Source: Lysinibacillus sp. B2A1 (lineage in GTDB: Bacteria; Bacillota; Bacilli; Bacillales_A; Planococcaceae). Taken from it: DNA of 64,000 bases. Position numbers and translations under genes: made by a program. Of the stretch, positions 15,055 to 20,635 are shown one piece after another (within the stretch, counting starts at the first letter, position 1; every line of letters begins with the position of its first letter). The DNA lies in assembly GCA_002973635.1 (NCBI GenBank), contig CP027224.1:5010001-5074000 (forward strand), written 5' to 3'. The notes under the pieces were generated by a model. That model saw only the letters and a list, made by a program, of their open reading frames with translations. It did not search any database and was not told the origin of the DNA.

Positions 15055-15954
15055 CTATTTTAATAGTACAGGGTCAAATAACCAATCCCTAGGTCCAAAG
15101 TTTTTATCCTTTTCGCCCCTTACCTCACGAGAAATATTATTTTTAATAATGATTTCTCTGAACTTTCTACTAAACAAAGTTTTTCGGTACAAATATCTGC
15201 CATCATGACTCCATTCTGCCGAGTAGAATATATCACCCGTCAGATCTTTCAAATCTTCATTCTTGTATATATCTGGACCATTAATAACTCCACTTAACCC
15301 ACATCGACATGGAGGTTGCTCCGTTGCAAAATATAATTTCACTCTTTCATTACTACATTCAGGCAATACTTGTGTTGGTATAATTTGAAAAGCCTTTTGT
15401 TTACCTTTCTCAGGTCCTTGATGAATTACCTCAAGAAGCTCATAACCTTGAATGTTCTCCAGCTTCATTAATGCTACTAATTCCTGTGAAGCTATCCAAT
15501 ATCCGCTCACATGTACAAGATGGCGATCTTTCATTTCTGTTGTATCAATAACAATTGGTGAAAGTTGCTCTTTCTCCATTAGCCCACAATGCTGGCAATG
15601 GGTACTTATAGAAAATAAAGTTCCTTTATCATCTAAAAACATATCAGGTGAATTACCTGTTGAATTTAACGTAAACAATGGTGCTTGCTCATATTCACTA
15701 TCTGAAAAATCAAAGTAAAAACGTTCTCCAATAGAAACAATTCCTAATTCGCGCTCTAACGATTTATATAATGCAGCCACCTGTTCATATGTCACTTCTT
15801 CATTTAATGTAAAAATAGGATTAAAAGATGCCTTTAAATTTCTTTTTCTAATTTCAGGCGCACCGATAAAAATTCCATATCGATTATAAACTTTAATGAC
15901 TTGATCTTGATTAGATTCATCTATAGAAAATAAATTTTCAAGTTCTACTTTCAA
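15055..15954 (-). CDS. Unknown 299-aa protein with cysteine pairs
   Basis: I do not recognise this protein with confidence. It is soluble and mixed alpha/beta, with a CxxCG at residues 120-124 and a CRCG at 216-219, which could bind one zinc ion together. The arrangement is loosely reminiscent of double-CXXCG immunity proteins (SitI-like), but the second motif is one residue short, so this is only a suggestion. It has a TTG start preceded by AAGGTAGG. The control region upstream is the left inverted repeat of the com locus (16113-16260), so it may be a target of that system. The 44-residue peptide gene follows. Confidence 0.65.
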   Translation of the reverse strand: MKVELENLFSIDESNQDQVIKVYNRYGIFIGAPEIRKRNLKASFNPIFTLNEEVTYEQVAALYKSLERELGIVSIGERFYFDFSDSEYEQAPLFTLNSTGNSPDMFLDDKGTLFSISTHCQHCGLMEKEQLSPIVIDTTEMKDRHLVHVSGYWIASQELVALMKLENIQGYELLEVIHQGPEKGKQKAFQIIPTQVLPECSNERVKLYFATEQPPCRCGLSGVINGPDIYKNEDLKDLTGDIFYSAEWSHDGRYLYRKTLFSRKFREIIIKNNISREVRGEKDKNFGPRDWLFDPVLLK

Positions 15955-16112: not shown

Positions 16113-16260
16113 TAACCACGATTAACTTAAGCGTACCAGTACTTATACCGCCATTTCAACGTTAGGTTTACGCCAATTTTATGGCGGTCTTTACTCAAAT
16201 TTCCGGCGTGATTTGGCGTATATATAAAAAACACCGCCACTTTTTGGCGGTGTCAACAGA
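16113..16260. repeat. Left inverted repeat of the comQXPA segment
   Basis: About 150 bases that recur, inverted and with small gaps, at 20462-20635. Shared blocks include TTAAGCGTA, CGCCATTTCAA, TTTACGCCAA and CACCGCCACTTTTT. It contains several TGGCGG/CCGCCA half-sites. It lies after comA and before the 299-residue gene. Its inner end is also a terminator hairpin (16232-16255). Confidence 0.7.
16232..16255 (-). terminator. Terminator of the comQXPA operon
   Basis: Perfect arms ACACCGCCA and TGGCGGTGT around a five-base loop. On the minus strand they are followed by TTTTTTATAT. It is about 140 bases after the comA stop codon and forms the inner end of the left inverted repeat. Confidence 0.7.
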
Positions 16261-16392
16261 AAAATATAGGCACTTGGTATTATTTATAAGGAAATATTAC
16301 CTAAGTTAATATATGGGAGTTTAAAACTACCTAATGTCTCCCTTTTTATTGAAATATATACCAGTACCATTTTAGTGTAACATATAATTGAA

Positions 16393-17016
16393 CTAAAGTA
16401 AATTCATTCTTTCAGCAAGATTTACAGCCTCCGTACGTGAGTCAACGTTTAGCAAAGAAAACAACTGTGTTAAATATCTTTCCGTTGTTCGCTGAGGGAT
16501 ATTTAGCTCAATCGCTATTGCCTTATTCGTATGTCCTTCGGCAATTAATCGTAAAATTTTCTTTTCTTTTTCATTTAAATGAATATCAAGTTTAGCATCT
16601 TGCAATTTAAATCTATTATCAAGAAAGTCTAAGAAATTTTGAGGTAAGACGATTTCTCCATTTGCAATAGCTCGTATAGTCCGTAATATTTGTTCCTTGG
16701 ATGCTGTTTTCGCCAAAATTCCTTCTATTTTCCGTTCTAAGATAAGTGGATAATAATCCGTAATATCATCACCAGTATAAAGAATAATTGAAGCCTTTGA
16801 CTGAATAGCTTTAATGTTACGAGCTAAGTTTATTCCATTTTCTAATGGCATATTTATATCTATCAAATATATATCATGGGGGTTATTTCTAATTCTCTGG
16901 ATAACATTTGTTGCGTCGCATTCTGTATCAACGATAATGTCTTCGTTTTCTTGAAATAAATTTTTTGTTCCCTCTAACACAATAGGGTGATCATCCACTA
17001 TGAGCATCGTAATCAA
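16393..17016 (-). CDS. comA: ComA-like response regulator
   Basis: A NarL/FixJ-type regulator. The receiver domain (about residues 1-115) begins LIVDDHP and carries the phospho-acceptor in LIDINMP, with AKTASKE near the end. The LuxR-type helix-turn-helix fills the C-terminus (EGHTNKAIAIELNI, then NVDSRTEAVNLA). Many positions match B. subtilis ComA, including the SRTEAV segment. In B. subtilis it is phosphorylated by ComP and activates competence and surfactin genes. The gene overlaps comP. The furthest start is a GTG lying on its own Shine-Dalgarno, so the TTG at 17016, 10 bases after AAGGA, is preferred; length is then 207 residues. Confidence 0.88.
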   Translation of the reverse strand: MITMLIVDDHPIVLEGTKNLFQENEDIIVDTECDATNVIQRIRNNPHDIYLIDINMPLENGINLARNIKAIQSKASIILYTGDDITDYYPLILERKIEGILAKTASKEQILRTIRAIANGEIVLPQNFLDFLDNRFKLQDAKLDIHLNEKEKKILRLIAEGHTNKAIAIELNIPQRTTERYLTQLFSLLNVDSRTEAVNLAERMNLL

Positions 17017-19294
17017 GTGTGTCACTTCCTTCTTTTACTGTAATTCTAATCGACATCCCTTCATTAATTTGCGAATCAATATAAAAATGCCCGTTAAAGG
17101 CTTTTACACGCTCCTGCATACCCCGAATTCCCATTGACTCTGCAATAATAATATCATCAATATTACAACCTACACCATCATCTTTGTAAAAAATTTCAAA
17201 TCCATCGTCTGTCTCTTGAAGATGAATTTCAACCGTTCTCGCATAGGAATGTTTTAAAGCATTATTGAGCAATTCTTGGAAGAGTCGATAGATCATTAAA
17301 TTCATACGTTCATCCTCTAGGTAAAGGCGGTCAATCGTATATAGTAACATAAAATTAGCTCTCTCTGTTACTTTTCGAATCAGCTTCTCTAAAGCTGCAT
17401 TTAATCCTAAAGTATCGAGTAATGGAGGCTTCAAATTTTCACAGTAGGTTCTTAAATCATGCAAGGAACCAATCATCTGCTTATGAATCTTTGCAAGTTT
17501 TTGCTGAATATCTGTCGTATCCTTTGCATTGACAAGGACATCGACCTCTCTAGCAATATATAGCTGCTCTTGCAAATTGGTATCATGTAACTCCTGTGCT
17601 AATTGATATTTTTCTTCTTCAAAGCGTAGCCATAGTAGTTTGTTTAACCAAGGTAAATGACTATCGTCTGCTTGCTTCATATGCTTTAATTCCTCTAACA
17701 GTTCTTCCACCATCTTTGTATTTTCAATAAAATTATTTACATAGAGCAGGAGTAATTCAAGCCATAAAAGTTCTTCTTCTTTTAAATGAATCAAATTGTT
17801 ATGTCCTAATACTAAGGCTCTTTTACAATGAGCATCCTGATGGAGAAAGGCTATATAGACTTTGTCAATTTTTCTTATCTCCCCCAATTTCAAATCCTCT
17901 ATTACTATAGGATCAAACGGAAGCCTCCCCTCTTCCTTTGAAGAAAATTGATGGTTGTCATAATCATAGGTTAGTACAAATACATGCTCCAGCTCAAGAT
18001 GTAGCGATACCTCCTGCGCAAATTTCTCTAATAACTCATCTATTTTAATAGTTTTACCAATTCGATCTACCGCAGTATATAGCTGATGTATGTAATCCCC
18101 TTTTGTTGAAAATAAGATTTTTCGTTTTCGATAATCAACCTTTTCTTTTATGTAAAAAAGTACAACTAAAGATACAAAGGTAAAGAATGAAATACCTGAT
18201 ATAACAGACATCGTTAAGTATTTACCAGCAATCCAGTATAGGCCAGCTGTAAACCACACAGTAAACAATAATGAAAAAATGACATAATACCGGAGTCTTG
18301 TAATATGATATTCAATATCAAATAATCGTTCAGCTAGCTGTGTAAAGATAAAGCTAAAAGGAATTAATAATAAAAATAGAGCACTAATTTCAGCTGAAAG
18401 AATGTATTGATGAAATAAGATATTAGGGAATGCATAAAGAAATAGGAATGGCAGAAATGGAATCATAATACTATTCAGCAACATCTTCAACTGAGGTGAT
18501 TTATATTTGAAATAGCTTAGCAATAATATACTAAGTATGGTTATAAGGAAAATGAAGAAAATAGCTAATACAACATTAGAAAGTAAATTATGAGTAGATG
18601 GATAGATAATGCCGATACATCCTAAAACCATGGCTATTATGGGTAGTAAATAAAATAATTTAATATTATTAGAAAGCAACCAGTTTGTTTTTAAAAATGT
18701 ATAATAATTTCTTAAAAAGTGTAGTAATAACACTAGGCATAGCAACATGCTTCCACGGTTAATGATAATCCCAGCTGCATTCAATCTTCCCGAAGCACCA
18801 CTACTAACGTATGCTATAGAAACTGTGAGCATAAAAAGAATTAATAGATTTATCAATTTTGTATTTTTTTGTTTAAAATAAAGATAAGTAGTGATAATTA
18901 AAGTAATAAAATAATAACAAGCAGGCATCACCAAAAGATAGTAAAATTGCTGAGGGATATCAAAATGATGTATCTTTACATTTACTTTCTCCCCATCCTG
19001 CTTCATTATTGTTAAATCATGAGCAGATAATATCGTAAACAAATATTTAACATTATCCAACTCTTCAATCGGTGTATCATTAACATTTATAATAATATCA
19101 CCTGGAGATATATTTTGATCCATTGCCCATTCTTTATAATAGAAATCAGTGATTACCCATTGTCCCTGTTCTTCCTTAAGCCCTATATTCAAAAAAGGCC
19201 CGCTATAATTCACATATAGCAAAAAAAGACCAATTGCTAAATAGAGACTTATAGCGCGCCAAAAAATCCTACCTGGTAATAATTTTAGTTCCAA
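16991..19294 (-). CDS. comP: ComP-like pheromone-sensing histidine kinase
   Basis: A membrane sensor kinase of 767 residues, nearly the length of B. subtilis ComP. After a first span (12-30) comes an extracellular PDZ-like domain (about 35-115, with SPGDIIINVND). Then about nine more spans run to residue 382. A cytosolic linker follows, then a HisKA_3 box with ELHDTN (H570), and an ATPase domain with LLNNALKH near 675 and DDGVG at 705-709. It should bind modified ComX outside and phosphorylate ComA. The start is a TTG inside the last codons of comX, 6 bases after AGAGGG, so translation of the two is coupled. The 3' end overlaps comA. Confidence 0.92.
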   Translation of the reverse strand: MELKLLPGRIFWRAISLYLAIGLFLLYVNYSGPFLNIGLKEEQGQWVITDFYYKEWAMDQNISPGDIIINVNDTPIEELDNVKYLFTILSAHDLTIMKQDGEKVNVKIHHFDIPQQFYYLLVMPACYYFITLIITTYLYFKQKNTKLINLLILFMLTVSIAYVSSGASGRLNAAGIIINRGSMLLCLVLLLHFLRNYYTFLKTNWLLSNNIKLFYLLPIIAMVLGCIGIIYPSTHNLLSNVVLAIFFIFLITILSILLLSYFKYKSPQLKMLLNSIMIPFLPFLFLYAFPNILFHQYILSAEISALFLLLIPFSFIFTQLAERLFDIEYHITRLRYYVIFSLLFTVWFTAGLYWIAGKYLTMSVISGISFFTFVSLVVLFYIKEKVDYRKRKILFSTKGDYIHQLYTAVDRIGKTIKIDELLEKFAQEVSLHLELEHVFVLTYDYDNHQFSSKEEGRLPFDPIVIEDLKLGEIRKIDKVYIAFLHQDAHCKRALVLGHNNLIHLKEEELLWLELLLLYVNNFIENTKMVEELLEELKHMKQADDSHLPWLNKLLWLRFEEEKYQLAQELHDTNLQEQLYIAREVDVLVNAKDTTDIQQKLAKIHKQMIGSLHDLRTYCENLKPPLLDTLGLNAALEKLIRKVTERANFMLLYTIDRLYLEDERMNLMIYRLFQELLNNALKHSYARTVEIHLQETDDGFEIFYKDDGVGCNIDDIIIAESMGIRGMQERVKAFNGHFYIDSQINEGMSIRITVKEGSDTLDYDAHSG

Positions 19295-19443
19295 ATTCCG
19301 CCCTCTAAATCAATTTCATTGTTAAAAGCATCTAAAATTGCTTTTTGTTCCATAGTTGAAATTCCAATCAATGAGGCTTTTTGTTCCTTCAATAGTGTAA
19401 CTAGGGCTGGGTTTTGTTCTAGATACTGAATTACGTTCATCAT
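19285..19443 (-). CDS. comX: ComX pheromone precursor
   Basis: A 52-residue peptide that should be cut and isoprenylated by ComQ, exported, and sensed by ComP. Reading the minus strand gives a start of MMNVIQYLEQNPALV, a middle KASLIG with ILDAFNN, and the tail EGGIWN. The conserved pattern of B. subtilis ComX (a Y before an NP-like pair, then ACLIG, then an AYN-like motif) is clear. The tryptophan at position 51, next to the last residue, is the expected prenylation site. GAGGAGA precedes the first of two ATG codons. The gene lies 12 bases after comQ, and its stop codon overlaps the comP start. Confidence 0.88.
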   Translation of the reverse strand: MMNVIQYLEQNPALVTLLKEQKASLIGISTMEQKAILDAFNNEIDLEGGIWN

Positions 19444-19455
19444 AATAATCTCTCC

Positions 19456-20358
19456 TCATTTCATTAGTTTTTTTAGGTAATCTTTACCTACTTCGTTTAT
19501 AGCTACATTTTCAAGATAACTCAATGCTTTAAACTTATAGACATTTTTAATGGTAATGGCATAACGTATCGCACCACCATTTGTCAACTCGTTTTCTGTA
19601 GCATTATTATCCAAAACTGCAACTATATCATCATTATAATAGTTTTTTACAGATTTTGAAACATCATTTTTTTGTGATAAAAGATAAATAATAGGCAATG
19701 AGTATCTTTTATTTAGCAAATCATTTTTTGGCCCCCAAGTTTTTAGACCCTGGATATCATTTTTTATTTGTTGAATGATGCCTATGTATTTACTATATTC
19801 CTTCACCTGAGAAGAGATTTCGCCCTTCGCAAGCACTTCCCCTATTAAGCAGCTCAGAGCTGTTAAAGAGCCTGATTTTTGTTCAATCATTTGTATATAT
19901 GACTGCTCATCTCTACAACTGTTGAGTAAGTCAAGCTGCTGTCCGTTAATACTGCTTAATGCGTACTCCTCAAGGATTTGATTAGCCTTATTTTTGTGTT
20001 CAAAAGAGGTTTCACGTATTATTTTAGAAGCCATAACTAACATAGCTAAAGCAACATTTAATGATAACTCAGGTGTTTTACTCCAACTATTGTCTGAATC
20101 CTTATCTTGCAAGTCATCTATAATATCGAAGGACAAAATTAGAAGTTCAATAGCTGCAGCTACTTTATAAATGTCCTCATCTACACAATCTGTAAATGCC
20201 TCATAATGCAAAACACAGAGTCTGCCAAATGAATAGCCTTCCGTTCTTTTTTCTTCTTTAAAGCTTTTTAGCATCGATTTTAAATCATAGCCCATCAAAG
20301 TCTCGTTTTCTAAAAGAATGTCCAATGATTCATTAATATGTTCATCAAGACCCTTCAA
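19456..20358 (-). CDS. comQ: ComQ-like isoprenyl transferase
   Basis: A 300-residue polyprenyl-synthetase-type enzyme that matches ComQ in length and position. It modifies the tryptophan of ComX with a geranyl or farnesyl group. The first Asp-rich motif is DDLQD at 81-85, within FDIIDDLQDKDSD, and the second region reads KNDIQG. The start is a TTG 9 bases after GGAGG. A TATAAT-like -10 lies upstream near 20395 without a good -35, as expected for an activated promoter. It is first in the operon comQ-comX-comP-comA. Confidence 0.9.
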   Translation of the reverse strand: MKGLDEHINESLDILLENETLMGYDLKSMLKSFKEEKRTEGYSFGRLCVLHYEAFTDCVDEDIYKVAAAIELLILSFDIIDDLQDKDSDNSWSKTPELSLNVALAMLVMASKIIRETSFEHKNKANQILEEYALSSINGQQLDLLNSCRDEQSYIQMIEQKSGSLTALSCLIGEVLAKGEISSQVKEYSKYIGIIQQIKNDIQGLKTWGPKNDLLNKRYSLPIIYLLSQKNDVSKSVKNYYNDDIVAVLDNNATENELTNGGAIRYAITIKNVYKFKALSYLENVAINEVGKDYLKKLMK

Positions 20359-20461
20359 TAGTCCCTTCCTCCTTTAATTATATTACTAAATATTATACAT
20401 TTTAATGGGAAATAATACTACATGCTTCATTTTTTTAGTAATACTTTCCATATACTATTTT

Positions 20462-20635
20462 GACGTAAATACCGCCAAAAAATGGCGGTATTTGTAGACA
20501 CCACGCCATTTTTTTGTTAAGAATTAGTAAAAAAAGTGGCGGTGTTGTATGATTGACCGCCACTTTTTGGCGTAAACTCACCATTGAAATGGCGTCCTTA
20601 TTGATGTTACGCTTAAATTAAGCTACGATTAAGCA
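20462..20635. repeat. Right inverted repeat of the comQXPA segment
   Basis: The reverse complement of this stretch aligns with 16113-16260, best at the outer end (TTAAGCGTA, CGCCATTTCAA, TTTACGCCAA). It holds about seven TGGCGG/T or complementary half-sites. These include the perfect palindrome ATACCGCCA-N5-TGGCGGTAT (20469-20491) and AGTGGCGGT...ACCGCCACT. It lies between the comQ start and the divergent 218-residue gene. Confidence 0.7.

Follow-up and report, generated by a model that had tools for sequence, protein, structure and literature searches.

A comQXPA operon of Lysinibacillus sp. B2A1 as the proposed hub of several ComX-ComP quorum-sensing channels

Here we describe a complete comQXPA quorum-sensing operon within a 64,000-nucleotide stretch of the genome of Lysinibacillus sp. 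B2A1 (contig CP027224.1, positions 5,010,001 to 5,074,000; the whole stretch is hereafter called the window), together with a clade of additional comX-comP pairs that is found in this genome and in most of its relatives. By comparing gene content, phylogeny, substitution rates and local replacement of sequence, we offer a model in which one modification enzyme and one response regulator would serve several pheromone-receptor channels.

The comQXPA operon and its context

Positions 16393-20358 of the window hold, on the minus strand, a complete set of comQ, comX, comP and comA, adjacent and in canonical order:

19456..20358, minus strand: comQ, 300 aa with DDLQD; predicted Trp-prenyltransferase of ComX; PF00348 polyprenyl synthetase, 73.7 bits
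19285..19443, minus strand: core comX, pheromone precursor, 52 aa with KASLIG, ending EGGIWN; PF05952, 46.3 bits, E 3.7e-12
16991..19294, minus strand: core comP, receptor histidine kinase, 767 aa; HisKA_3 and HATPase_c above cut-off
16393..17025, minus strand: core comA, response regulator, 210 aa; PF00072 Response_reg and PF00196 GerE above cut-off

The original prediction, made from the letters alone, had proposed a complete locus with a genuine comX, and it holds: all four genes lie where it placed them, with Pfam support and a context kept in relatives. The ComX frame, for which it had suggested a Pfam search, exceeds the PF05952 cut-off of 25 bits, its Trp51 of 52 being followed by one Asn, and the stop codons in related strains that had been named as a warning sign occur in none of the 73 ComX matches from 32 genomes. 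Some details fared less well. Gene overlaps exist between comX and comP and between comP and comA, but not between comQ and comX; the PDZ-like region ascribed to ComP is matched by PDZ models only below cut-off; and comX can hardly be called overlooked in general, given that 13 of 27 related database proteins, most of them from Lysinibacillus, already bear the name ComX. ComP has a sensor (residues about 1-340), the catalytic His570 and a DxxxQ motif at 571-575, and ComA a receiver and a LuxR-type helix-turn-helix (HTH). Hydrophobic stretches are visible by eye in ComP, whose sensor is putatively of the multi-span membrane type. A genome-wide search returned the window comQ as the sole close comQ of the genome (100% self-match, the next matches reaching only 32% and 27%).

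The arrangement was compared across a census sample of 32 Lysinibacillus genomes, the window genome (G000) among them. The gene at 15055 follows comA in 31/31 genus-mate loci and siderophore-side genes occupy the opposite flank in 29/31; because these neighbours are kept, the arrangement is not due to chance. The regulator gene comA adjoins the core comQ in all 31 relatives' loci. In the draft genome G002 (L052:2346-2744) its frame breaks off after 132 aa, the receiver part being open and the HTH part lying in another frame. At the core position of G017, comQ and comA stand side by side without comX and comP between them.

Sets and methods

The core set comprises comX and comP of the comQXPA locus at the position of the window operon, a satellite is a comX-comP pair without comQ or comA in the fetched locus, and the remaining set comprises divergent comQ-linked loci. 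The ComP tree holds 89 rows and is a quick tree with long outgroup branches; its 30 satellite rows consist of 29 full-length sequences and one 691-aa fragment (L104). Since the ComP of G005 (L055) branches beside the satellites, it was excluded from the core set for ComP identity averages and for the count of fixed differences, and retained in other comparisons. The comA of G002 was omitted from the ComA alignment owing to its length. Receptors lacking a comX were sought by searching ComP against the genus (E<=1e-80, at least 60% identity) and comparing the matches with known loci by eye. Outside Lysinibacillus, 20 regions were fetched, corresponding to 21 of the 32 ComX matches from 28 genomes.

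Satellite comX-comP pairs

A model search of the window genome yielded four Pfam ComX frames in all, three of them away from the window, and a search of the same genome with the operon DNA returned further comP-like places. The three lie at about 1.660, 2.824 and 3.862 Mb of C1 with no adjoining comQ or comA:

L008: comX 53 aa, ending NGLWYL; comP 781 aa
L009: comX 52 aa, ending ENGIWF; comP 786 aa
L010: comX 53 aa, ending ELRIWY; comP interrupted by an insertion

Their ComX score 43, 44 and 40.8 bits against PF05952, above cut-off, and carry a C-terminal Trp. The frames inserted in the comP of L010 resemble, by eye, an insertion sequence transposase, and the receptor at 3.862 Mb is probably dead. 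Neither these three pairs nor the arrays on the flanks of the operon (see below) figured in the original prediction.

ComX occurs in 32/32 genomes of the genus, the 73 frames being divided into 31 core, 33 satellite and nine other comQ-linked copies, with a core comX in every genome except G017. There, a single comX-comP pair is located away from comQ-comA. Every genome has exactly one core comQ (62-100% identical to that of the window). The 33 satellites are spread over 26 of the 32 genomes (five in G012, three in G000, two in G014 and one apiece in the other 23), and G005 (86% complete), G013, G021, G026, G027 and G029 have none. No satellite is flanked by its own comQ or comA (0/33), i.e. 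none forms a comQXPA locus, and in six of the 26 satellite genomes (G004, G018, G022, G023, G030 and G031) the core comQ is the only genome match at E<=1e-3. The satellite comX is open in 33/33 cases and comP is full-length in 29/33. Within the thresholds of the receptor-only search, no ComP match was found in the genus outside comX-holding loci. Kinases 35-43% identical to satellite ComP were also seen in many genomes of the genus.

The Trp is followed by one or two residues in all 33 satellite ComX. The original prediction had regarded the short tail after the Trp as a possible mark of a new pherotype, an idea that loses its force where exactly one residue follows in 31/31 core and 31/33 satellite ComX; the identity of the tail residue may matter, although the last six residues of the window ComX recur in its nearest relative, G014.

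Upstream of satellite comX (e.g. L008:8820-8974) lies a conserved promoter, TTGTTG...TATAAT, without the arrays that flank the core operon (see below). When 11 of the 33 upstream regions were viewed, an inverted repeat, TAGTTACA...TGTAACTA, was noticed by eye in several leaders; in several, TAGTTACA follows the promoter and TGTAACTA precedes the ribosome site. RNAalifold, applied to 10 chosen leaders of the 33, predicted no pair.

A search for spread of the satellites by phages gave no phage match. Plasmid records were matched in seven cases, three of them over 80% of the query; in the two of these three that were inspected, a 299-aa gene and PAP2 come after comP-comA, which is also the order of the core locus. 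Spread by plasmids was set aside, both records carrying core-locus neighbours and probably representing chromosomal pieces labelled as plasmid. The record CP031730.1 (L221), labelled a plasmid of Stenotrophomonas rhizophila, holds a Lysinibacillus-type core comQXPA with its usual neighbours and is likely mislabelled or contaminating sequence.

Phylogeny, selection, and conserved and variable faces

In the ComP tree the 30 satellite rows form one clade (Shimodaira-Hasegawa-like approximate likelihood ratio test, SH-aLRT, 99) and 30 of the 31 core rows another (98), the G005 core ComP branching beside the satellites (support 96). The ratio of nonsynonymous to synonymous substitution rates (dN/dS) of comP lies between 0.09 and 0.27 across 11 satellite pairs and between 0.05 and 0.15 across five core pairs, and satellite ComP looks to be under purifying selection. 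For comX, with about 52 codons, the ratio ranges from 0.08 to 1.0.

Conservation is unevenly distributed along both proteins. The ComP helix at 556-582 (DHp, with the catalytic His) is 95.2% identical between core and satellites versus 49.3% between core and other kinases, and each of the nine other ComP-like kinases compared has its own comA-like gene; in the sensor (1-340), core and satellites are 54.1% identical. His570, Asp571 and Gln575 are kept in 89/89 aligned ComP rows and, together with the N-box Asn, in all 30 satellite rows. In this kinase family the DHp helix has a role in choosing the regulator, and DxxxQ one in phosphatase activity. Residue 573, inside DxxxQ, is Asn in 31/31 core ComP, Ile in 19, Asn in six and Val in five satellites, and Asn in none of 28 elsewhere; our guess is that this position may shift the balance between kinase and phosphatase activity.

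Core and satellite ComX share 70% identity in the leader (1-40), where core and other ComX share 44%, and 30% in the C-terminus (41-52). In none of the 25 genomes holding at least two core or satellite ComX do any two of these end in the same six residues, and no last-six sequence is common to the core and satellite sets. With a conserved leader and DHp helix, and a variable C-terminus and sensor, the faces expected to touch ComQ and ComA are thus kept while those expected to set the dialect vary.

Replacement of the specificity block

Five close genome pairs combine core sensors 94-100% identical and satellite kinase halves 96-100% identical with satellite sensors of only 51-59% identity, the replaced satellite block of ~1 kb spanning the 3' end of comX and the comP sensor inside nearly identical kinase genes. 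In G007 and G008, whose core regions are 99-100% identical over 10 kb, the satellites match at 96-100% over a stretch that begins ~1.7 kb ahead of comX, the neighbourhoods differing further upstream, and again downstream to the limit compared; the intervening low block runs from comX codon 44 of 52 to approximately comP codon 308 at 58-73% identity per 100 bases. In other pairs the block ends as late as about comP codon 370. For the pairs among G002, G003 and G010 and for G000/G014, the corresponding values are 94-98% (core sensor), 96-98% (satellite kinase half) and 51-56% (satellite sensor). The two satellites of the G000/G014 comparison have common neighbours on both sides, their upstream similarity stopping after about 300 bases, and two satellites within the single genome G012 share about 95% of the kinase half and 54% of the sensor. 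Where the kinase halves of two satellites match at 88% or more, the sensors fall below 75% in 58/64 pairs, versus 34/86 for core pairs; the satellite pairs L109/L112 and L094/L100, taken as a contrast, display no such drop.

Core alleles are replaced too, in pairs that are more distant. Across 15 of these, comQ identity is 74-89% (mean 83.5), compared with a mean of 86.5 in 52 unreplaced core pairs, and over 465 pairs core comQ identity correlates with that of the sensor (r 0.73) and of the kinase half (0.70). Thus comQ and the sensor are not exchanged together as a unit, yet they still co-vary to some extent.

Flanking palindrome arrays

Two arrays of short half-sites flank the operon:

20456..20621, no strand: left array of CGCCA/TGGCG half-sites and palindromes (inverted repeats I1 and I2 and pattern hits), in the gap separating comQ from the divergent 20637 gene
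16122..16266, no strand: right array, built of the same half-sites and inverted in arrangement, in the gap separating comA from the 15055 gene

Paired CCGCCA...TGGCGG arrays lie on both flanks of comQXPA in the window and in 29/31 relatives; counted separately, the left array is present upstream of comQ in 29/31 and the right in 30/31, G017 having the right one only and G005 neither. The arrays are perhaps operators of some regulator, possibly ComA. The HTH of G005 ComA reads RTVERYL and that of the other 30 aligned core ComA rows RTTERYL, so that the one genome without arrays has an altered HTH, which makes ComA a candidate array regulator, albeit from a single evolutionary event. The flanking inverted repeats had also suggested a transposon-like or mobile cassette; this was rejected, the core neighbours being constant in relatives (31/31 and 29/31) and no varying insertion sites being found among them.

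Of 12 loci with palindrome matches viewed elsewhere, several lie beside prophage amidase and secreted-protein genes and several are not array-like. L122:4987-5193, L123:4841-5072, L213, L215 and L219 carry similar arrays or lone palindromes next to prophage holin/amidase-like or small secreted-protein genes (MKISK...; names assigned by eye), and the array-bearing loci near such genes form a possible regulon.

Other com-like loci

The divergent comQ-linked loci of the genus hold nine comX and include the additional loci L082-L090. The window genome has a divergent comP-comA-comQ cluster at about 1.08 Mb of C1 (L121:4850-9061). A 59-aa frame of this cluster, on the opposite strand, ends STWLPR; it has no Pfam ComX match and resembles what Dogsa et al. 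2014 (PMC4008528, cited here and below from its available portion) called a "hypothetical comX on the opposite strand". Another locus of this genome, at about 3.68 Mb of C1 (L011:7897-10708), pairs a ComP-like kinase with a ComA-like regulator of its own; no comX was found there.

Family-wide, ComX was found in 60/261 genomes, and in 28/229 outside Lysinibacillus. Of the 20 regions fetched outside the genus, 16 have an adjacent comQ; in the other four, all from genus g10, comX-comP-comA is accompanied by no intact comQ. Next to comX, G067 retains degraded comQ pieces and G065 one short piece. All four g10 genomes have an intact comQ elsewhere (41-42% identical to the query), and in G065 the comP beside it is split. 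In g10, comX has thus independently outlasted the comQ beside it in genomes that have a second one. In another genus, two nearly identical tandem comX lie between comQ and comP (L154:4627-5258, G059).

Discussion

We consider it probable that several ComX-ComP channels, consisting of a conserved core and hypervariable satellites, depend on a single ComQ and a single ComA. The window operon would then be the hub of a multi-channel ComX network: its ComQ would prenylate the core ComX at its Trp and would act in trans on the Trp of the three satellite ComX as well; each mature peptide would be sensed by the sensor of its own adjacent ComP, the pairs being orthogonal; and the ComP kinases, keeping one ComA-facing helix, would converge on the single window ComA. 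We infer this wiring from gene content, clade structure, low dN/dS, block replacement and the separation of conserved faces (the ComX leader towards ComQ, the ComP DHp helix towards ComA) from the diverging ComX C-terminus and sensor. Core alleles, being stable between close relatives, would provide a shared channel, and satellite alleles, which differ through recombinational exchange of the specificity block, would provide private, lineage-specific ones.

Several observations weigh against this proposal and have to be set beside its rivals. That the satellites belong to a different circuit, with ComP rewired to another regulator or ComX either prenylated by another enzyme or left unmodified, is in our view unlikely, though it would fit the lack of adjoining comA or comQ in 33/33 satellites and their own conserved promoter. 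As the array pattern has 0/33 matches at satellite loci, satellite regulation appears to differ from that of the core. The comQ-like enzyme of the divergent L121 locus could act on satellite ComX, and divergent comQXPA-like loci also occur in some other satellite genomes. The cut comA of G002, a satellite-bearing draft, may be real or a sequence error, and its output may be lost. The dN/dS ratios of comX pairs reach 1.0 on about 52 codons. DHp-helix identity is itself no proof of ComA phosphorylation, and the correlation of comQ with the sensor leaves ComQ as a full generalist unproven. Against a different circuit speak the satellite helix, 95% like that of the core where kinases with their own comA-like gene reach 49%; the six satellite genomes with a single comQ match; and G017, with one comX-comP and one comQ-comA, apart from each other.

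Decaying duplicates without present function would account for the four broken satellite comP (of 33, L010 included) and the six of 32 genomes without satellites; we regard this as the least probable explanation, given the low comP dN/dS, the comX frames open without exception, the catalytic and N-box residues kept in 30/30 rows and the repeated replacement of the same block. Scarcely more probable is that they represent an ordinary second-copy comQXPA, as in the 2014 Lysinibacillus census, with the satellites a local quirk: two comQXPA loci are given for L. sphaericus C3-41 and L. fusiformis ZC1 (PMC4008528) and extra comQ-linked loci exist here (L082-L090), but the satellites lack comQ and comA, form their own clade next to the core and occur in 26/32 genomes.

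The proposed hub has partial counterparts. In Vibrio harveyi, parallel kinases converge on one regulator, so that several signals have one output, and the signals and receptors are unrelated; the Lysinibacillus signals, in contrast, are paralogues within a single precursor family. Rap receptors keep ComA repressed as long as their peptide is not bound, and involve no ComQ-type modification. The Rap-Phr paralogues acting on ComA in B. subtilis likewise join many peptide/receptor pairs to one regulator (PMC4771773, cited here and below from its available portion), whereas membrane kinases with a common modification enzyme are proposed here. B. subtilis ComQXPA itself has the same four genes in the same order, the same ComX Pfam family, a prenyltransferase and a hypervariable 5' half of comP. 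Its comQ, however, lies within the poorly conserved region (PMC6334282, available portion), whereas the block replaced in Lysinibacillus starts inside comX and leaves comQ out, and a Lysinibacillus genome can hold as many as five additional comX-comP pairs. Genomes with more than a single com locus have been described in the same genus; those loci have comQ, and the available main text describes no modules lacking comQ and comA (PMC4008528). No comQ-less comX-comP modules were found in the literature searched, whose coverage excluded most subscription papers and bioRxiv preprints; the available portion of PMC8895600 does not mention such modules, and PMC5199041 does not use com gene names.

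Each B. subtilis isolate has a single ComP-ComX, and a strain with an added one was selected against; a pair of ComX signals works there like an OR gate, and additional systems build up if the incoming receptor represses dominantly as long as its signal is absent (PMC4771773). Satellites could act as OR or as AND (veto) inputs, and the published model would favour the veto. We put forward only tentatively, as a rather doubtful extension, a two-tier quorum sensing in which a conserved core, shared by close relatives, is combined with hypervariable private satellites, one generalist ComQ and one ComA serving both tiers, and in which the satellite receptors are net ComA phosphatases until their own peptide arrives (AND gate). 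Such wiring is of the kind that PMC4771773 calls necessary for extra systems to accumulate.

Carrying a whole clade of extra comX-comP pairs, Lysinibacillus seems for long to have done the opposite of B. subtilis and, if the hub proposal is true, would offer a natural test of which wiring lets redundant signals accumulate. Under the proposal, more than one precursor should be accepted by the tryptophan prenyltransferase, and genomes with the same core and a swapped satellite are natural experiments on pheromone-receptor specificity. If it is true, a single cell might speak several chemical dialects simultaneously and, should the AND gate also prove true, the satellites would constitute a built-in kin or cheating filter.

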